Assembly: GCA_030747075.1 (NCBI GenBank)
Contig: JASLLL010000018.1
Location: 1 to 48,985 of the forward strand
From: Gemmatimonadota bacterium
GTDB taxonomy: Bacteria > ARS69
DNA: 48,985 bases
Reading direction: 5' to 3'
The notes under the pieces were generated by a model. That model saw only the letters and a program-made list of their open reading frames with translations. It did no database searches and was not told where the DNA came from. Position 1 is the stretch's first letter; every line of letters begins with the position of its first letter. A program made the translations under genes and the position numbers. Below are positions 1,573 through 13,501 of the stretch, one piece after another.

Positions 1573-2937
1573 ATGCGGTTTTCGGCGGTTGCAATGTCAG
1601 CGGGACTGGCGCTGGCCGTTGCGGTGACTTCCTGCGGTCCGCCATCTCCTCCGCCCGTGGATCCGTCGGATGTTGCGGCTTTCGCGGACGAACCCGGCGC
1701 GAACCGTTGCGCGGGCATTCCCGGAAGCGTGAACGCCGGTGCGGATCTTCTCTTCGGCACAGGGAGCGGCGTGTCCGCGGCGCGCGCACCCGTGCCCGCC
1801 AATGCCTCCGAGGCGGTCGTCTTCCGGCACCTGTACCAGACGCTGACCGAAGTCGATTGCAACGGCCATGTGACGCCGGGTCTCGCACGGGAGTGGCACT
1901 CGATCGAGGACGGGCGCGCGTGGATCTTCACGCTCGTTCCGGATGTGCACTATGCGGACGGTGGGCTCATTTCCGCGAGGGAAGTGGTGAATGCGTGGGC
2001 GGGGACGCGCCGCCGAGCACAGGAAACGGGTCGCGGGCGCACGCCCTGGGTCGGGATTCATCCCGAGGACATGGGAATGCCGGGGCTTCTGACGCTGGTC
2101 ATCCGACCGGACCCGCCTCGTCGGGATCTTCCGCGTCTTCTTTCGCATCCTGCGTTCTCGGTGCTTCATCGCGTGGAGAAGGACGAGTGGCCGCTCAGCA
2201 CCACCGGATGGATCACCGACGACCGCCACGAATCCCGGGGCGGGGGTCAGATTCGGTGGGACTCGGTATCTGACGGAGAGCGAGGCCCATCGTCCGTCAC
2301 CTTTCATGTGGAACCGGGCGCGGACCCGCGCGACCTGTCCCGGGCGGACGCGTTTCTCCTGCGGGACGGTGCGGCGGCGCGATATCTGAACGACGCGGGG
2401 GGCTTCCGGGTTGTCCCGCTTCCGGCGGATGTGCGCTACGACCTTCTTCTTCCCGTGCGGTTGAAGGCGGCGGTCGTGGCCGCACTCGGGGAGGGTGCGC
2501 TTCTCGACCTTGCGACGAGCGTGGTTCGGGCGGACGCTCGCCCCGCACCGCCCTCAGAGGCTGCGCCGCCGCTGAGCGTTCGCTATCCGAAGCGAGTGCG
2601 TTACTCCGCCGAAGACGCGGACGCGGCACGCATCGCCGAGCGACTCGCCGCTCTGTTCGCGGAAGCCGGTGGCGACACTCCCGTGGTGGAGGCGATTCCC
2701 GCCGAGGTGTTCCCCGATGCCGTTGCGCGTGGAAAGGGCACCTTCGTGGCGCCGGTTTCGCTTCGAGATGTTGCGGTGGACGGGGCGTGGTCGTCCTGGC
2801 CGGGCGCTTCCATTCCTCTGGTCACGACCGGAGCGTGGATGGCGGTCAGGGATGGCGTCGCGGGAATCGTGCCGGGCTTTGATGCGGTGCCGCGCCTGCG
2901 CGCTGCCGGTCGCGAGATCGGCAGGCAATCACCATGA
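1573..2937 (+). CDS. Solute-binding-like lipoprotein (SBP family 5 type)
   Basis: A 454-residue lipoprotein. The signal peptide ends in VTSC, so Cys21 is the likely lipidated residue. The stretch VFRHLYQTLTEVD, GLAREW, DGRAWIFTLVPDVHYADGG and REVVNAW is typical of the N-terminal lobe of family-5 extracellular solute-binding proteins (peptide/nickel type). It is shorter than the usual 500-550 residues. The ATG at 1573 follows a GAGGAGGG. No permease or ATPase gene is adjacent. Instead the stop codon overlaps the start of a histidine kinase gene (2934-2937). That context suggests a ligand-sensing accessory protein for the kinase rather than a transporter subunit; this is inference. Confidence 0.75.
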   Translation: MRFSAVAMSAGLALAVAVTSCGPPSPPPVDPSDVAAFADEPGANRCAGIPGSVNAGADLLFGTGSGVSAARAPVPANASEAVVFRHLYQTLTEVDCNGHVTPGLAREWHSIEDGRAWIFTLVPDVHYADGGLISAREVVNAWAGTRRRAQETGRGRTPWVGIHPEDMGMPGLLTLVIRPDPPRRDLPRLLSHPAFSVLHRVEKDEWPLSTTGWITDDRHESRGGGQIRWDSVSDGERGPSSVTFHVEPGADPRDLSRADAFLLRDGAAARYLNDAGGFRVVPLPADVRYDLLLPVRLKAAVVAALGEGALLDLATSVVRADARPAPPSEAAPPLSVRYPKRVRYSAEDADAARIAERLAALFAEAGGDTPVVEAIPAEVFPDAVARGKGTFVAPVSLRDVAVDGAWSSWPGASIPLVTTGAWMAVRDGVAGIVPGFDAVPRLRAAGREIGRQSP

Positions 2938-4574
2938 CCCTCCGGCGCCGGACCCTCGTGGGTGCGACGGCGCTCATTCTGTTGCCGCTGTCTCTCCTTG
3001 GGTGGTGGATTCACACCCAGGTGGAGAACCGCATTCTCGAAGGGGAGGCCCGGGTCGAGGCGGCACGCCTGCTTCACTCATCCAGTGCGCTGAGGTCACT
3101 GAACACCAGACTGGAGACACGCCTGGCCGCGATCGCAAACACCATCAGTTCTGACAATCGCGTTCGCCTCTCCGTGGCGACCGATCGCGAAGACCTGCAG
3201 TCCGCTCGTCTCGACTTTGCCGAATCCGCGATGTCGATGACGGGTCTCGACTTTCTCCGGATTCAGACGGCGGACGGACGCATCCTCTGTTCCGGGCACT
3301 TCCGAAACGAGTACGACACCCTGGACGAGGCCACGCTGAACGAGTTGCGGGGCCAGAGCCAGGGAAGCCTTGTGACGGCCCGCCGCCCGGAAGGCGAACT
3401 TCTCGTGTTTGCCCGCGCGCACTCACTGGATCTTGGTACGCGGCGCGTGTTCCTGCTCGGGGGATCCCGGATGGACGCGAACGGCCTCCAGGAGCTGGTG
3501 CCGGAGGGGGGCGTGGCCGTGACGCTCGATTATCCGGGCGGGAAGGTGGAAGTTCCCTGCGCGGCGGGGTCCGCAACGCTCGACATTACCGCGCTCGACG
3601 ATCCCGCACGAGACACACTGCGCGATCTGGACGCCGCACTGCTCCTTGCGTGGCTGGTGGCGGCGGCGGGTACGCTGTTGCTTGCGGGCCGTCTTGCGGC
3701 GAAGGTGGCGTCTCCGGTGGAGGAACTGGCATCCCGCGCGGCGCGCCTTGACTGGGAGGACCTGCGGACGGACTTCCCGGAAGACACACGCGACGAAGTG
3801 GGAACGCTCTCGCGCGTACTGAACGAGCTGGCGGCACGCCTTCGCGCGGGAGCCGTCGGGCTTCGCGAGGCGGAACGACGCGCCACTTTGGGTGACCTCG
3901 CGAGGCAGGTGAACCACGACCTCCGCAACGGGCTCACACCCATTCGCAATGTCGTGCGGCACCTGTCGGAGACGGCGGCGGATTCTCCCGCCGAACTCGC
4001 GCGCATCTTTGAGGAGAGAGAAGCGACGCTTGCGGCAGGGCTTGACTATCTCGACGAACTGGCGGGCAACTACGCGCGGCTCTCCACCCAGGCGGAACGA
4101 CGCGCCTGCGATGTCGAGCGCGTTCTTCGCGAAGCGACCGCCGGGCTTCTTGCGGAGGAAGGGGGCGAGGTGCGGCTGGCGATCCCGGCGGACTTGCCGC
4201 CGGTGATGGCGGAGCGGTTGGGCCTTCGCCGCGTGGTGGAAAACCTCATTGCCAACGCACGGGACGCGGTGAAGGAGGGCGGCTCGTCGGTGGTCGTCGC
4301 GGCGGGAGAGTGCGCGCTTGCAAACGGAGCCCCCGGTGTCCGGGTGACGGTGACCGACGACGGCCCGGGGATTTCGGCGGAGGACCGGAGCCGTATCTTC
4401 GAAGCGTTCTACACCACCCGGGGCGGCGGTTCCGGACTGGGGCTGGCGATTGTCCGCCGCATTGTCTCCGACCTTGAAGGCGTGGTGAGCGTGGAGAGTG
4501 CGCCCGCGTCCGGGACGACGGTTGCCGTAACGCTGCCGGCGGCGCCGGTCGCGGGTCAGGAGGAGGACTCATGA
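2934..4574 (+). CDS. Membrane sensor histidine kinase
   Basis: 546 residues. A first membrane helix lies near residues 8-26, then an extracytoplasmic sensor region of about 200 residues, a second helix near 233-255 and a HAMP-like linker (SPVEELASRAARLDWEDL). The dimerisation/phosphoacceptor box is QVNHDLRNGLTPIRN with His328. The ATPase domain shows the N box (ENLIANARDAV), G1 (DDGPGI) and G2 (GGGSGLGLAI). No PAS domain is seen. The start overlaps the upstream lipoprotein gene by ATGA, and the stop overlaps the next start at 4571, so the three genes are probably translationally coupled. The partner is the NtrC-type regulator directly downstream. The signal is unknown. Confidence 0.93.
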   Translation: MTLRRRTLVGATALILLPLSLLGWWIHTQVENRILEGEARVEAARLLHSSSALRSLNTRLETRLAAIANTISSDNRVRLSVATDREDLQSARLDFAESAMSMTGLDFLRIQTADGRILCSGHFRNEYDTLDEATLNELRGQSQGSLVTARRPEGELLVFARAHSLDLGTRRVFLLGGSRMDANGLQELVPEGGVAVTLDYPGGKVEVPCAAGSATLDITALDDPARDTLRDLDAALLLAWLVAAAGTLLLAGRLAAKVASPVEELASRAARLDWEDLRTDFPEDTRDEVGTLSRVLNELAARLRAGAVGLREAERRATLGDLARQVNHDLRNGLTPIRNVVRHLSETAADSPAELARIFEEREATLAAGLDYLDELAGNYARLSTQAERRACDVERVLREATAGLLAEEGGEVRLAIPADLPPVMAERLGLRRVVENLIANARDAVKEGGSSVVVAAGECALANGAPGVRVTVTDDGPGISAEDRSRIFEAFYTTRGGGSGLGLAIVRRIVSDLEGVVSVESAPASGTTVAVTLPAAPVAGQEEDS

Positions 4575-5932
4575 GCCGGATACTGATTGTGGAAGATGTT
4601 GCCCCGCTTCGGGAGCAGTACGCCTACGACCTCCGGCGGCTTGGTGGACATGAAGCGCTGGAAGCGGACAGCGTGGAGCGGGCGCTGGAGTTGATTGCGA
4701 CCGAAGCGGTGGACTGCGTCATTCTGGACCTGGAACTGCCGGGAGCGGACGGGTTCGGGTTTCTGGAAGCGCGTCGGGCACGCGGGCTGGATGTGCCGGT
4801 GATTGTGTACACGGGAACAGGAAACTTCGATCGGTGTGTGCGCGCGGTGGAACTGGGCGCGTACGGGTTCATCGACAAGGCGGAACCGATGGAGCGTGTC
4901 CTTCGCGAAGTGGACCACGCGCTCGAACGCGTGCGCCTTGCGGAGGAAGTGACGGCGTTGCGGGCCCGTGCCGGATTGCCGGGGACGATGGTGGGCGAGA
5001 GCCCAGCCATGCGTGCGCTTCGAGCGGAGATCGTGCGTCTTGCGCGGGTGCCGAGTGCCGTGCTTGTGCTGGGCGAGAGCGGCGTCGGCAAGGAACTGGT
5101 TGCGCGGGACCTCCACGGGCTCAGCCCGCACGCGGACGGGCCGTTCGTCGCGGTGAACTGCGCTGCGCTTCCGGATGCGCTTGTGGAGAGCGAACTCTTC
5201 GGCCACGAGCGCGGCGCATTCACAGGTGCGGATCGCGTCCGCCGCGGGGCCTTTGAACGAGCGTCGGGTGGAACGCTTCTTCTCGACGAGATCGGGGAGT
5301 TGCCGCTGTCCGTTCAGGCGAAACTTCTCCGCGTGCTGGAGGACGGACGGGTCACCCGCGTCGGCGGGAGCCGGGAAGTGGAGTCGGACGCGCGGATCGT
5401 GGCGGCAACGAATCGCGACCCGGAGAAGGAGGTCGAGGCCGGGAGATTCCGTGAAGACCTGCTCTACCGGATCAATGTGCATTCGGTCACCGTGCCGCCC
5501 CTTCGCGAGCGCCCCGGGGATGTGGTGCGGCTTGCGGATCACTTCCTGCGGGAGACGGCGAGCCGGTTCGGTCGGCGCGTTCCGGAGATTGCGCCGGGCG
5601 CTGTGGCGCTTCTGGAAGCCGAAGAGTGGCGGCGCAACAATGTTCGCGAACTGCGCAATGTCGTGGAGCGGCTCGTGATCGCGGCCGATGGCGGGCGCGT
5701 GGAGGCGGCGCATGTGGAGGAGGCCATGGGAGCGCGGCCCGGAGTTGCGTCCGCGAAGCTGGCGGGCGGGACACTTCGCGATCAGCGGGACGCGGCGGAA
5801 CGCGCGATCGTGCAGGCGGCGCTTACGCGGCATGACGGAAACCTCACGCACGCGGCCGCGGAACTGGGGCTGGCGGATCACGCGAGCCTCTCGAAGATCC
5901 TGACGCGGCTGGGCATCCACCGCGAGGCGTAA
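4571..5932 (+). CDS. NtrC-family sigma-54-dependent response regulator
   Basis: 453 residues in the REC - AAA+ - HTH order of bacterial enhancer-binding proteins. The receiver domain has the acidic pocket near Glu8-Asp9 and the phosphoacceptor Asp53 ([12 protein letters not shown]). The AAA+ domain has Walker A GESGVGKE, the sigma-54-contacting GAFTGA loop at residues 215-220, and Walker [13 protein letters not shown]. The C-terminal Fis-type helix-turn-helix is near residues 420-450 ([21 protein letters not shown]). It should activate RpoN-dependent promoters when phosphorylated by the overlapping kinase. Its targets are unknown; a sigma-54-type promoter lies 1.8 kb downstream, before hsp20. 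Confidence 0.96.
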
Positions 5933-6417: not shown

Positions 6418-7524
6418 ATGAAAGCGAAGGAGACTCGACCCGTGAGACAGAGCTGGAGCCAAAAGGACGGCAACCCGGGACGCATTGGAATCGCGCTGGG
6501 AATCGCGCTGCTTGCGACGCTGGGCGTCGGAGTGCTTCTGACGACGCTCGACACGGCGTCCGGCCCGGGGGAATCGGAACAACGACCGGCGGTTGCGGAA
6601 TCCGCGCCGTCGTCCGCGGCGATGCCCGCGGAAATCGCAGAAGTGCCGGAATCCGCGCCCGAGGTGTCCGCGGAGACGGCCGTCGCGGAACCCGTGGTCG
6701 AACCCGCCACCTTCGACGGGGGCATGGGGGCGTATGGCAAGGGCGAGTATGCCCGCGCCGCCGCGATGTTCGCGGCGTGGGGCGCAGAACACCCGGAGAG
6801 TGTCTGGGGGCCGTACATGCGCGGCGTGTCGCTGCGTCATGCCGGGGACCTGGCCGGTGCGGAGGCGGCGCTGGTCGTGGCGCTTTCCATCGACCCCGGT
6901 CACAGGAAGAGCCTCCTGAACCTGTCGCGCGTTCTGCTGGATGCAGGGCGTCCGGACGATGCGTTCGCGTCGGTGCGGAACGCGCTCGACATCAACCCGG
7001 AGTCGGGAGAGGCCCTTCGGGTATTCGGACTGGTGCGGCACGCGCAGGGCGACCGTGGCGGCGCGTTGGCGGCGTTCGAGGCGGCACTCGACGCGGACTC
7101 CACGGACGCATGGTCGTGGAACAACGCGGGCTTCCTCTTCATTGAGGAGGAGAGGTTCGTGCAGGCTCGGAGCTGTCTGGAAGAGGCCTGCTCGCTGGAT
7201 GACACGCAGCCGACCTTCTGGAACAACCTCGGAGTGGCGCGGGAGCGAGTGCACGATTATGACGGAGCGGCGGGAGCCTATGCCCGCGCAGTGGAACTCG
7301 ACTCCGCGTATGAGAAAGCCATCCTGAGCCTTGCGCGCGTGGAGGCGATTCCCGATTCGCCCGAGGCGCCGCGTCCGGTGGAGATGGTCGAGCAGGTGGA
7401 GACGGCGGAATCCGAAAAGGCTGATGAGCCGGTGGCTGACGGTGACGCCCTCCGGTCCGCCAACGCGGAGAATGCCGAAGACCCGATGGAAATCGTCGCA
7501 AGCGAGACCGCACAGGATCGCTGA
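6418..7524 (+). CDS. Membrane-anchored TPR protein
   Basis: 368 residues from the ATG at 6418, chosen because GGAAGAGGAG lies just before it; the frame is open further upstream but without a ribosome-binding site. A basic N-terminus is followed by one membrane helix (about 22-42) and a Pro/Ala/Glu-rich linker. About six tetratricopeptide repeats follow between roughly 98 and 305, for example AYGKGEYARAAAMFAAW and WNNLGVARERVHDYDGAAGAY. The C-terminal tail is acidic. The TPR part is probably a periplasmic or cytoplasmic protein-protein scaffold. A strong hairpin follows at 7544-7571, so it is probably a single-gene unit. Its exact role is unknown. Confidence 0.85.
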   Translation: MKAKETRPVRQSWSQKDGNPGRIGIALGIALLATLGVGVLLTTLDTASGPGESEQRPAVAESAPSSAAMPAEIAEVPESAPEVSAETAVAEPVVEPATFDGGMGAYGKGEYARAAAMFAAWGAEHPESVWGPYMRGVSLRHAGDLAGAEAALVVALSIDPGHRKSLLNLSRVLLDAGRPDDAFASVRNALDINPESGEALRVFGLVRHAQGDRGGALAAFEAALDADSTDAWSWNNAGFLFIEEERFVQARSCLEEACSLDDTQPTFWNNLGVARERVHDYDGAAGAYARAVELDSAYEKAILSLARVEAIPDSPEAPRPVEMVEQVETAESEKADEPVADGDALRSANAENAEDPMEIVASETAQDR

Positions 7525-7543
7525 GACATCCACCCCGCCACGG

Positions 7544-7571
7544 GCCCGGGGGGAAGCGATTCCTCCCGGGC
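7544..7571 (+). terminator. 12-bp hairpin with GCGA tetraloop after the TPR gene
   Basis: The arms 7544-7555 and 7560-7571 pair over 12 bp with one G-T pair, closed by a GNRA-type loop GCGA (7556-7559). It starts 19 bases after the stop codon. The T-tract is poor (TTCTCC), so termination may be partial or Rho-assisted. Confidence 0.6.
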
Positions 7572-7587
7572 TTCTCCGTCCGAGGGA

Positions 7588-7602
7588 CTGCCAGTTTGGC
7601 AG
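7588..7602. promoter_or_regulatory. Palindrome CTGCCA-GTT-TGGCAG, candidate enhancer site for hsp20
   Basis: A perfect 6-bp inverted repeat with a 3-base centre. It lies about 135 bases upstream of the -24 element at 7730, the usual distance for an upstream site bound by a sigma-54 activator. Which protein binds it is not known. Confidence 0.5.
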
Positions 7603-7728
7603 CCCACGCGCCACCCCCCCCTCCGGAACCCGCCACACTGACACACGCCCGTCCGGCCATCGTCCCACAGCATCCGGGCCAGTTCCCGCAACGCGTTAGG
7701 ATTCCTTCAGTTACGAATCTCTCCATAA

Positions 7729-7746
7729 CTGGCACGCCCCCTGCAT
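7729..7746 (+). promoter_or_regulatory. Sigma-54-type (-24/-12) promoter of hsp20
   Basis: CTGGCACG matches the -24 consensus exactly. The -12 part is CTGCAT against TTGCA/T. The invariant GG (7731-7732) and GC (7743-7744) are separated by exactly 10 bases, as RpoN requires. An AGTTA/TAACT inverted repeat (7709-7730) overlaps the upstream edge. The hsp20 start is 64 bases downstream. Confidence 0.7.
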
Positions 7747-7810
7747 GGTCGGGGGGCAGTAGTCAACCCACACCCCTTCCGCGATGCGGAAGAGAACAGG
7801 AGAGAAAGCC

Positions 7811-8251
7811 ATGCTGACCATCCGAACCAACGATTTCCGGCCTGCGGTCGCTCCCGGGAGCGGCTTTGCCCGGATCTTCGACGAGCTGCTTGAGACAGGT
7901 GCTGCGGCCCCCGCAGCGTGCGGGACCGCCTCGCCCGCGCTGAATGTGTACGAGAACGAGGAGGCGTTCGTGGTGCGCGCCCGCGTGCCGGGGCTTTCGA
8001 TGTCAGCGCTCGAGGTTTCGCTCCTCGGGCGGGAGTTGACGCTCTCGGGATCGGCGGAAGAGAACGCCGACGGACCGGGAAGCCTCCGGATTCACGAGTG
8101 GAGGAGCGCGCCCTTCCGGCGTATCATTCGCCTTGGTGCGGATGTGGACGCGCAGGCGATCGCCGCGACGCTGGACAGCGGGATCCTCACCGTCACCCTG
8201 CCGAAGGCGGAGACGGCGCGACCGAAGAAGATCGATGTGAAGATCCGCTAG
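7811..8251 (+). CDS. Small heat-shock protein, Hsp20/alpha-crystallin family
   Basis: 146 residues, the normal size for bacterial Hsp20. The alpha-crystallin domain spans about residues 42-135: ALNVYENEEAFVVRARVPGL, then LRIHEWRSAPFRRIIRLGADV, then the family hallmark ATLDSGILTVTLPKAE. It is an ATP-independent holdase for unfolding proteins in the cytoplasm. The ATG at 7811 follows AGGAGAG. A sigma-54-type promoter 64 bases upstream and a palindrome further up suggest activator-dependent stress control. A hairpin follows at 8269-8289 before the YugP-type gene. Confidence 0.95.
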   Translation: MLTIRTNDFRPAVAPGSGFARIFDELLETGAAAPAACGTASPALNVYENEEAFVVRARVPGLSMSALEVSLLGRELTLSGSAEENADGPGSLRIHEWRSAPFRRIIRLGADVDAQAIAATLDSGILTVTLPKAETARPKKIDVKIR

Positions 8252-8268
8252 CCTGACCGGGAATCGCG

Positions 8269-8289
8269 GGGCGGGTGGACGGCCCGCCC
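8269..8289 (+). terminator. GC-rich hairpin after hsp20
   Basis: GGGCGGG (8269-8275) pairs with CCCGCCC (8283-8289) across a 7-base loop, 17 bases after the hsp20 stop. The following TGATTGATTT is only moderately T-rich, so read-through into the next gene is possible. Confidence 0.45.
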
Positions 8290-8333
8290 GCCCTGATTGA
8301 TTTCGCCGACGCACTTGCGAAGGAGAACGCCCC

Positions 8334-9029
8334 GTGTACTTTTTCGGAATGTTCGATCCCGTCTACTGGCTCTTCATCGGCCCGACGCTTGCGCTGACAA
8401 TCTGGGCGCAGTGGCGCGTGAAGCGCGCCATGGGAAAGTGGGGGCGCGTTCCCAACCTGCGTGGCATCACCGGCGCGGAGGCGGCGCACGCGATGCTGCA
8501 GAAGGCGGGGCTGTCACAGGTGACGGTCGAACAGTCGAAGGGGTTCCTGTCAGACCACTACGACCCGCGCACCCGCGGCATCCGGCTCTCGGAGCGCGTG
8601 TACTCCGGTCGCTCCGTCGCGGCCATCGGGATTGCCTGCCACGAGGCCGGGCACGCCATCCAGCACGCCACACACTACGCGCCGCTGGCACTGCGGAACG
8701 CGATTGTCCCGGTCGCGAGCATCGGCTCTCGTCTTGCCATGCCGATGATCTTCCTGGGCCTTATCCTGCATATGCAGAATCTCGTGTTGCTGGGGATTGC
8801 CGCCTTTGCGATTCTCGTCGTGTTCCAGTTGATCACGCTTCCGGCGGAGTTTGACGCGTCCCGCCGCGCCAAAGAGACCCTCCGGACGATGGGCCTCGTG
8901 CAGACGCAGGGCGAAGGCGCAGGGGTTGCGGCAGTGCTGGACGCGGCCGCGCTGACCTATGTGGCGGCGACGCTTTCGGCGATTGCGCAACTGGCCTATT
9001 TCCTCCTCCTCTCGGGACGCCGCCGGTAA
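8334..9029 (+). CDS. YugP-type neutral zinc metallopeptidase, membrane protein
   Basis: 231 residues starting with GTG at 8334 after GAAGGAGAA. The zinc motif HEAGHAIQH, with SDHYDPRTRGIRLSERVYSGRSVAAI before it, is characteristic of the YugP/zinc-peptidase-2 family. Membrane segments lie at the N-terminus (VYWLFIGPTLALTIWA), at about 120-165 and at the C-terminus. The family is widespread but poorly characterised; it is presumed to degrade membrane or misfolded proteins. Its position next to hsp20 fits a protein-quality-control role, which is inference. A terminator-like hairpin follows. Confidence 0.9.
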   Translation: MYFFGMFDPVYWLFIGPTLALTIWAQWRVKRAMGKWGRVPNLRGITGAEAAHAMLQKAGLSQVTVEQSKGFLSDHYDPRTRGIRLSERVYSGRSVAAIGIACHEAGHAIQHATHYAPLALRNAIVPVASIGSRLAMPMIFLGLILHMQNLVLLGIAAFAILVVFQLITLPAEFDASRRAKETLRTMGLVQTQGEGAGVAAVLDAAALTYVAATLSAIAQLAYFLLLSGRRR

Positions 9030-11454: not shown

Positions 11455-11583
11455 GTGAGATTGAAGCCCGCTTCATCCTATCGTCCCTCACGCGCCGAGA
11501 GCGCACTTGCGTGGGTATTCACCGCATCGTCCGCGTTCGTGGTCGCGTGGTTCGTCCTGGTCCCTTTCCTCGGGCGAGGCTGA
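11455..11583 (+). CDS. Small single-helix membrane protein upstream of selB
   Basis: A 42-residue reading frame with a GTG start 6 bases after CGGAGG. About 17 polar and basic residues (MRLKPASSYRPSRAES) are followed by one hydrophobic helix (ALAWVFTASSAFVVAWFVLV) and a short Arg/Gly tail. Positive residues before the helix suggest the N-terminus is inside the cell. It ends 4 bases before the selB start, so the two are probably co-transcribed. I recognise no family. The good ribosome-binding site and coherent helix argue for a real gene. Confidence 0.55.
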   Translation: MRLKPASSYRPSRAESALAWVFTASSAFVVAWFVLVPFLGRG

Positions 11584-11587
11584 CCCG

Positions 11588-13501
11588 GTGAGGTCGGTCA
11601 TCCTCGGGACCGCCGGTCACATTGACCACGGGAAGACGGCGTTGGTGCGCGCGCTCACCGGCGTCGACACCGACCGCCTCGAAGAAGAGCGTCGGCGCGG
11701 CATCTCCATCGAACTCGGCTTTGCGCAACTCGTGGCGGCCGGGGTGCGCTTCGGGATTGTGGATGTTCCGGGGCACGAACGCTTCGTGAAGAACATGCTT
11801 GCGGGTGCTGCGGGGATTGATCTTGTGATGCTCGTCGTGGCGGCGGACGAAGGCGTCATGCCGCAGACACGCGAGCATCTGGACATCATCGACTTCCTCG
11901 GGGTGGATCGCGGCGTGGTCGCGCTCACCAAGTGCGATCTTGCCGACGAGGACTCCCGCGAGATCTCCCGCCTCGACGCGGAGGAACTTCTGGAGGGCAC
12001 TTCGCTGGAAGGCGCACCCGTCCAGGAGGTCAGTTCCATCACCGGTGACGGGCTCGACGCGCTGAAGAAGACGCTTGGGCAACTGGCGACCGGGGTGCCG
12101 GAGCGTTCCTCCTGTGGCGCGTTCCGCCTGCCGGTGGATCGCGTCTTCACGATGGAGGGGTACGGGACCGTGGTCACGGGGACGGCGTGGTCCGGGTCCG
12201 TCGAGGTGGGCGACCGTCTCGAAATCCTGCCGTCGGGGCGGGAGGTCCGCGTTCGTCGCGTACAGGTTCACGGCAAGGATGCGGAGTGCGCGGAAGCGGG
12301 TCGGCGCACCGCACTTGCGCTGCACGGCGTTTCCCGGGAGGAGGTCCGGCGAGGCGAGCAGGTCGTCACCCCCGGGTCACTCCAGTCCGCGCCCATGCTG
12401 GATGTCCGCGTCCGCGTCGCTCCGGGCTGGTCGCGTCCCATTCGAAATCGCGAGCGTGTGCGATTCCACCTGGGCGCGTCGGAGGATCTGGCGCGAATCG
12501 TTCTTCTCGATCGCGACGAACTGCTGCCCGGCGAGGACTGTCTCGCGCAGCTTCGCATGGAGACTCCGGCCGTCTCCGCGGTCGGCGATCGATTCGTGCT
12601 GCGATCGTACTCTCCCATGCGCGCGATGGCGGGCGGCGTTGTCATTGACCCGCGCCCGAAAAAGCACCGCCGCTTCCGCGAAGACGAACTGCAGTCGGTG
12701 GCGCACCGCGAAGGCGGTGGCCCGGTGGCACTTGTTACGGATGCGGTGGAGGCGGGCGCGCTTCGCGGGATGCGTACGAAGGATCTTGCGGATGCCACCG
12801 GTCTCTCCCGCGACGAAGTCGCCACACTCGTCGAGCAGGAGGTCACGGAAGGCCGACTCCGGATCGGTGCGAACCGCCGCGTGGTGAGCGAGGGGGTGTG
12901 GGAGGCATCGCGGCGGGCGGTGGTCGCGCAGGCGACGCGCTTTCTGGAAGAGCACACGCTCCGGTGGGGCATCCCTCGCGAAGAAGTGCGCACGGCTCTC
13001 GGTCGCGAGACCGCACCCGGGCTTCTGGCGGAACTTCTCACGGAACTGGAAGCGGAGGGTGCCGTCGAACTGCGCGGAGAACTCATCCGCACCGGCGGGG
13101 GCGATGTGGTCTTTGAGGGCCAGGCCGCCCGGGAGCGCGACCGACAGGAGACGCTCTTCCGCCAGTCCGGGTGTTCGCCTCCGAGCGTAGCGGCGGCACT
13201 CGCGGGTGGCGCGGATGCTCGTCTTGCGGAGGAAGTCCTTGCGGCCCTTCTCGACCGGGGAGACCTTGTAAAGCTGGCGCCGGACCTTCTCGTGCACCGC
13301 GACGCCTATGCCGACGCGAAGGACACGCTGGGCACGATCGCCGCGCGGGACGGCGGGATCACCGTCGGCGCTTTCCGCGACGCACTCGGGATTTCGCGCA
13401 AGCACGCGGTGCCGCTTCTGGAGCACTTCGACGAAGTGCGCGTGACGCGACGGTCCGGAGATGAACGGGCGCTGCTCACGCCGCGCGCACCGGCCGGGTA
13501 G
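11588..13501 (+). CDS. selB: Selenocysteine-specific elongation factor SelB
   Basis: 637 residues, the normal length for SelB. The GTPase domain carries GHIDHGKT (10-17), [17 protein letters not shown] and TKCD. EF-Tu-like beta-barrel domains 2-3 follow ([16 protein letters not shown] is the SelB-type domain-2 start). The C-terminal part is winged-helix repeats ending in [29 protein letters not shown], which bind the SECIS RNA. SelB delivers Sec-tRNA to in-frame UGA codons. GTG at 11588 was chosen because the conserved domain starts directly ([17 protein letters not shown]). selA, selC and selD are not in the window, and I found no obvious selenoprotein gene here. Confidence 0.95.

Follow-up and report, generated by a model that had tools for sequence, protein, structure and literature searches.

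How is transcription of the small heat-shock gene hsp20 switched on in this genome, and by which regulator? In a 48,985-nt stretch of DNA from a Gemmatimonadota bacterium, the whole of which we refer to as the window, hsp20 (7811..8251, forward strand, start codon ATG at 7811) encodes a 146-aa small heat-shock protein of the alpha-crystallin family (PF00011, E 9.5e-17). A sequence-only reading of the window had placed this gene under a sigma-54 promoter with an upstream palindrome. It had proposed control by an enhancer-binding protein (EBP) instead of sigma-32 or HrcA/CIRCE, and had pointed to an NtrC-type regulator encoded 1.8 kb upstream.

The promoter was found as proposed. The -24/-12 element TGGCACGCCCCCTGCA (7730..7745, forward strand) deviates by a single mismatch from TGGCACG-N4-TTGCW, and its GG (7731-7732) and GC (7743-7744) are spaced by 10 nt. 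Judged from the position of this element, transcription of hsp20 would start at about 7756, and a Shine-Dalgarno-like CAGGAGA (7798..7804, forward strand) lies 6 nt ahead of the ATG. The palindrome at enhancer distance was recovered as well: operator 1, an exact copy of CTGCCA-N3-TGGCAG with the spacer GTT (CTGCCAGTTTGGCAG, 7588..7602, forward strand), is situated 128 nt upstream of the T in TGGCAC of the hsp20 promoter. A second and weaker site, operator 2 (CCGCCACACTGACAC, 7630..7644, forward strand), had gone unnoticed in the sequence-only reading; it matches at 9/12 positions and follows 42 nt downstream of operator 1, about four helical turns away. The hsp20 gene thus possesses two enhancer-like sites, 128 and 86 nt upstream of its promoter, where distances of about 80-200 bp are usual. 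An interpretation of the operator 1 palindrome as a terminator was ruled out, since it is without a trailing T-run, and a search for RNA families returned no match.

One possible objection is that the palindrome belongs to an ordinary repressor or another regulator unrelated to sigma-54, that the -24/-12 element is coincidental and that a sigma-70-family promoter drives hsp20. Taken alone, the -24/-12 element is indeed within chance for one window: allowing at most one mismatch, the promoter pattern has 1 match in the window versus 0.34 expected. The exact palindrome occurs in 2 copies in the 2.67-Mb genome (G000), and so does its reversed control; we therefore rejected palindrome abundance alone as evidence. 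The location of the two copies is specific: they precede hsp20 and dnaK, only those two places, and the distance from the palindrome to the -24/-12 element is 128 nt at hsp20 and 120 nt at dnaK. The scan of the genome for palindromes near -24/-12 promoters that had been suggested earlier accordingly yields exact copies at these two genes alone. The dnaK gene, identified by Pfam/NCBIfam, carries the -24/-12 element CGGCACGACCCTTGCG. Since the regulon includes dnaK, the finding exceeds a single holdase. In 2000 Markov shuffles each, the best palindrome scores upstream of the hsp20 and dnaK promoters were equalled 0 times. With one mismatch, the palindrome occurs at two further places in the genome, of which one (L004) was not linked to a promoter and the other lies upstream of an orphan EBP gene on contig C1, to which we return below. 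Palindrome and promoter are each near chance when considered singly; their combined position and their conservation across genomes exceed chance.

This conservation was evident in five genomes of the window's phylum (G000 to G004), each from another genus, whose hsp20 loci were compared (the window, G001:C294, G002:C266, G003:C142 and G004:C584). Upstream of the hsp20 gene that is linked to a PF04298 metallopeptidase gene, both a -24/-12 element and sites resembling the operator occur in 5/5 genera, so that both elements of the sequence-only reading are kept at the orthologous genes. At dnaK, GGCAY-N5-TTGCG and an operator-like site were found in 4/4 genomes with a readable dnaK start, the operators of G002 and G004 being degenerate (10/12), and the GG-GC spacing is unchanged at hsp20 and dnaK promoters across the phylum genera. 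Thirteen operator sites, drawn from 12 promoters, were compared; G002:C266 contributes two of them, and the G002:C196 promoter is excluded. Positions G3, C5, A6, T10, G11 and C13 are invariant among these sites. The excluded promoter belongs to an extra hsp20 gene (L060) with a near-perfect -24/-12 element and without an operator of the hsp20/dnaK type; this gene is possibly under another EBP. All hsp20 promoters in the phylum that bear an operator have a second site 40-52 nt away, and so do both dnaK promoters from Planctomycetota described below. Such a spacing (about 4-5 helical turns) would be expected if two activator dimers sat on the same DNA face.

To look beyond the phylum, we scanned 386 genomes across the bacterial domain for TGCCA-N3-TGRCA, followed after 77-107 nt by GGCAC-N5-YTGC, blind to the identity of the genes nearby. 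This combined search retrieved 17 loci in 15 genomes, versus 1 match for the reversed control. According to reading and Pfam, the downstream genes encode Hsp20 at six loci (G252, G152, G082, G148, G324, G115), DnaK at five (G003, G197, G121, G258, G276), ClpB-type proteins at three (G379, G115, G043) and Lon at one (G379, L170). Chaperone or protease genes are thus present at 15/17 loci. These loci come from ten families, of which nine lie outside the phylum of the window. The other two loci lead to a DsrE-like protein (G163) and to a protein without Pfam match (G179). The signature of the latter (L186 4510-6102), consisting of TGCCA-N3-TGACA and a -24/-12 element, is located directly 3' of an unrelated receiver-type EBP gene. 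A pattern that is nearly confined to the upstream regions of chaperone genes in 386 genomes, together with -24/-12 elements that are kept at hsp20 and dnaK across genera at constant GG-GC spacing, speaks against a coincidental element. Moreover, no sigma-70-type promoter for hsp20 was found in 7500-8350. We therefore consider a sigma-70-family promoter for hsp20, next to the site of a repressor or other regulator unrelated to sigma-54, extremely improbable.

The inventory of sigma factors and repressors is in line with sigma-54 control. The rpoN gene is present in the genome (TIGR02395 above cut-off), and RpoH passes the cut-off in no examined genome (TIGR02392, best 179.6 bits in G000 versus 323.1). 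HrcA was found in G000, G002 and G003, with the arrangement hrcA-grpE-dnaJ in G000, and a search for CIRCE with at most 2 mismatches gave no match in G000, including hsp20, dnaK and the hrcA-grpE-dnaJ locus. The earlier proposal of sigma-54 and an enhancer in place of sigma-32 or HrcA/CIRCE is thus upheld by the presence of rpoN, the lack of RpoH above cut-off and the lack of CIRCE at hsp20. G002, G003 and G004 have one CIRCE copy each, which precedes groES in G003 and groES-groEL in G004. Because CIRCE sits at groESL where it could be read, and not at dnaK or hsp20, the sister genera appear to split the work: HrcA acts on groESL, and sigma-54 on dnaK, on the hsp20-metallopeptidase gene pair and, in three genera, on clpB. 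HrcA/CIRCE resembles the system described here in its palindromic control of chaperone genes, but HrcA is a repressor with an operator of its own (TTAGCACTC-N9-GAGTGCTAA). Promoters that depend on an enhancer are usually inactive until their activator is present, and heat-shock control of this kind should therefore differ in behaviour from derepression in the case of HrcA or sigma competition in the case of sigma-32. In Escherichia coli, the small heat-shock protein gene ibpB likewise has a sigma-54 promoter, which stands beside a sigma-32 promoter. In that bacterium, however, sigma-54 is accessory to sigma-32, whereas here no RpoH exceeds the cut-off and dnaK is co-regulated.

Which protein acts on the operators? 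The NtrC-type response regulator indicated by the sequence-only reading is indeed encoded 1.8 kb upstream of hsp20 (4571-5932). It is a canonical receiver-AAA+-HTH protein and forms a complete two-component pair with a histidine kinase, whose gene (2934-4574) lies immediately upstream and overlaps it. Its proximity and architecture would make this regulator a candidate for a genuine sigma-54 promoter and enhancer, but the suggested activator role found no support. The protein has its own kinase, it falls outside the EBP clade outlined below, its HTH match is weak, and it shares 7/26 residues with the HTH consensus. A tblastn search with this regulator gave no match around the hsp20 orthologs of G001, G003 and G004, and in G002 a partial AAA+ match only beside the C196 hsp20. 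Furthermore, a copy of the operator sits at the promoter of another EBP, where it is conserved in 5/5 genera. We consider activation of hsp20 by its NtrC-type neighbour very unlikely.

That other EBP, an orphan sigma-54 activator of 507 aa (G000:C1:90498-92018), is most likely the activator of hsp20 and dnaK. It combines an AAA+ domain (PF00158, E 5.5e-70) with a Fis-type HTH (PF02954, E 9e-12). One-to-one orthologs with 64-66% identity are present in 5/5 genera, the next EBPs reaching at most 54%, and the AAA+ sigma-54 interaction domain and the Fis-type HTH occur in 5/5 of these orthologs. The one-mismatch palindrome CTGCCATCTTGACAG is located about 55 nt ahead of the ATG of the EBP gene, and CTGCCAWCTTGAC precedes the EBP ortholog in 5/5 genera, where the upstream sequence reads CTGCCA(T/A)CTTGAC(A/G). 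The right half of this operator copy overlaps a -35 hexamer (TTGACA-N17-TAACAT in G000). EBP bound to an operator over the -35 hexamer should block sigma-70 polymerase, from which we infer autorepression. Support for the orphan EBP as activator also comes from Planctomycetota, where an EBP gene adjoins a dnaK gene that bears the same signature. The N-terminus of the orphan EBP is weakly receiver-like (PF00072, 14.5 bits versus a cut-off of 30.2), and the position of the phospho-acceptor Asp aligns with an invariant Pro53 in the phylum EBPs, which makes activation by ordinary phosphorylation unlikely. No kinase was identified among the ORFs surrounding the EBP gene (L023). The EBP loop reads GAFTSA in G000, G002, G003 and G004 and GAFTGA in G001, and the related EBPs of most signature-positive genomes have a GAFTGA or GSFTGA loop.

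We regard it as quite probable that hsp20 and dnaK constitute a small sigma-54 heat-shock regulon driven by the orphan EBP. In this model, which is built from sequence features, the EBP would bind CTGCCA-N3-TGGCAG-type sites about 85-130 bp upstream of the promoters. By DNA looping it would reach the sigma-54 polymerase that waits at the -24/-12 promoters of both genes, and would open it with the energy of ATP hydrolysis. The EBP would also occupy the site that covers the -35 in the sigma-70 promoter of its own gene, thereby probably limiting its own synthesis, and HrcA/CIRCE would retain groESL in the sister genera. Heat or misfolded protein might serve as the inducing signal. Several observations weigh against the model: the GAFTSA loop in four of the five phylum EBPs, the degenerate dnaK operators of G002 and G004, the operator-free hsp20 promoter of G002:C196, and, as described below, positive genomes in which no EBP gene adjoins the chaperone gene or the best-HTH EBP lies outside the clade.

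A search of named genomes, for which the EBP C-terminus served as query, also revealed a pairing of operator and EBP outside the window's phylum. In two Planctomycetota records, an EBP gene lies directly 5' of dnaK (L089) or about 0.8 kb 5' (L119). The gap between EBP gene and dnaK contains the operator/promoter sequences CTGCCAAAGTGGCAC and TTGGCACTGTCCTTGCT in L089 and GTGACAATGTGGCAG and TTGGCACGCAGTTTGTT in L119, where the -12 GC of TTGGCACGCAGTTTGTT deviates at one position. The HTH segments of both EBPs are 57-66% identical to those of the phylum EBPs. Their receivers are intact, and in L089 a histidine kinase gene lies 5' of the EBP gene. Apart from these Planctomycetota records, no positive genome was found to have an EBP gene near the chaperone gene. 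The related EBP of Bacteroidota has no receiver, and many records link it to miaB, secG, groES and groEL; loci with such receiver-less EBPs are L088, L101, L114, L115, L140, L150, L152 and L153. Several Bacteroidota groES upstream regions contain TTGGCAY -24-like elements and TGTCA repeats, but the TGTCA-N3-TGTCA sites at groES were not counted, because several of them belong to the arms of the hairpin that terminates secG.

Do these EBPs share one origin? EBP trees were evaluated by FastTree local support, and the proteins taken from signature-positive genomes were chosen by HTH similarity. The EBPs of the window's phylum, Planctomycetota and the Bacteroidota type form one clade with the best-HTH EBPs of 7/10 signature-positive genomes (local support 0.95 for AAA+ plus HTH, 0.91 for the AAA+ domain alone). 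All sampled phylum paralogs and the window's response regulator fall outside this clade, and so does the best-HTH EBP in 3/10 positive genomes (G043, G082, G258). Alternatively, the sigma-54 regulon could be real and its operator, a convergent Fis-type site, be read by unrelated EBPs in different phyla, in which case no single ancestral heat-shock EBP would have existed. G043, G082 and G258, which have no EBP within the clade, would agree with such convergence, as would the operator-type site adjoining an unrelated EBP in G179 and the varying architectures, from a degenerate receiver here and an intact receiver with kinase in Planctomycetota to no receiver in Bacteroidota. Against this stands the recovery of the clade by the AAA+ domain alone, a domain that was not used for choosing the positive-genome proteins. 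We consider convergence of unrelated EBPs rather unlikely.

To a wider reading we assign about even chances: an ancient EBP family may represent a third principal way in which bacteria control heat-shock genes, next to sigma-32 and HrcA. This family would act through TGnCA-N3-TGnCA enhancers and sigma-54 on dnaK, hsp20, clpB, lon and, in Bacteroidota, groESL, and its sensor domain would have been exchanged between lineages. If true, the family would extend from the window's phylum to Planctomycetota, to Bacteroidota with their relatives and to several other lineages, and its sensor would be an intact receiver plus kinase, a dead receiver, or none. For heat-shock control in lineages that lack sigma-32, the operator, the candidate activator with its conserved autoregulatory site and the gene list are now specific.

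That sigma-54 promoters are predicted at heat-shock genes in two phyla is already known: in Planctomycetota and Bacteroidota, such promoters are enriched at DnaK, GroES/EL, GrpE, DnaJ, IbpA (Hsp20) and ATP-dependent proteases, according to passages of a recent study (PLoS One 2025, PMC12316311). These passages state that not all organisms studied there have EBP specificity available, and name neither an operator nor a regulator, whereas we present an operator, a candidate EBP, an autoregulatory site and further lineages. In Myxococcus xanthus, the NtrC-like HsfA directly controls lonD within the HsfA/HsfB phosphorelay (Ueki and Inouye 2002, as cited in a passage of PMC9109919). As far as this passage goes, the two systems share an NtrC-like regulator and a heat-shock protease, Lon being also among the signature genes here (L170). 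They differ in that the hybrid kinase HsfB phosphorylates HsfA, whereas the EBP described here is without the Asp and no nearby kinase was identified. No description of the CTGCCA-N3-TGGCAG operator or its EBP family was found in the literature searched, which lies mostly outside subscription journals. The operator thus appears to be new, as do its association with a single EBP clade and its cross-phylum reach.

The genes downstream of hsp20 are also conserved. A terminator-like hairpin 3' of hsp20 (8267..8295, forward strand) is weak, with 0.5 expected, and is followed by the gene for a neutral zinc metallopeptidase (PF04298; 8334..9029, forward strand), which lies downstream of hsp20 in 5/5 genera (the window, L025 1714-5116, L061, L062 and L068). 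In three genera (G002, G003, G004), clpB comes after this metallopeptidase. It is possible that hsp20, the PF04298 peptidase and clpB form a quality-control operon. A SelB-like elongation factor gene is located downstream of the hsp20 region in the window (11507-13501), and in G003 a SelB-like gene likewise lies downstream of clpB (L025 5754-6939), which makes this a conserved neighbourhood.
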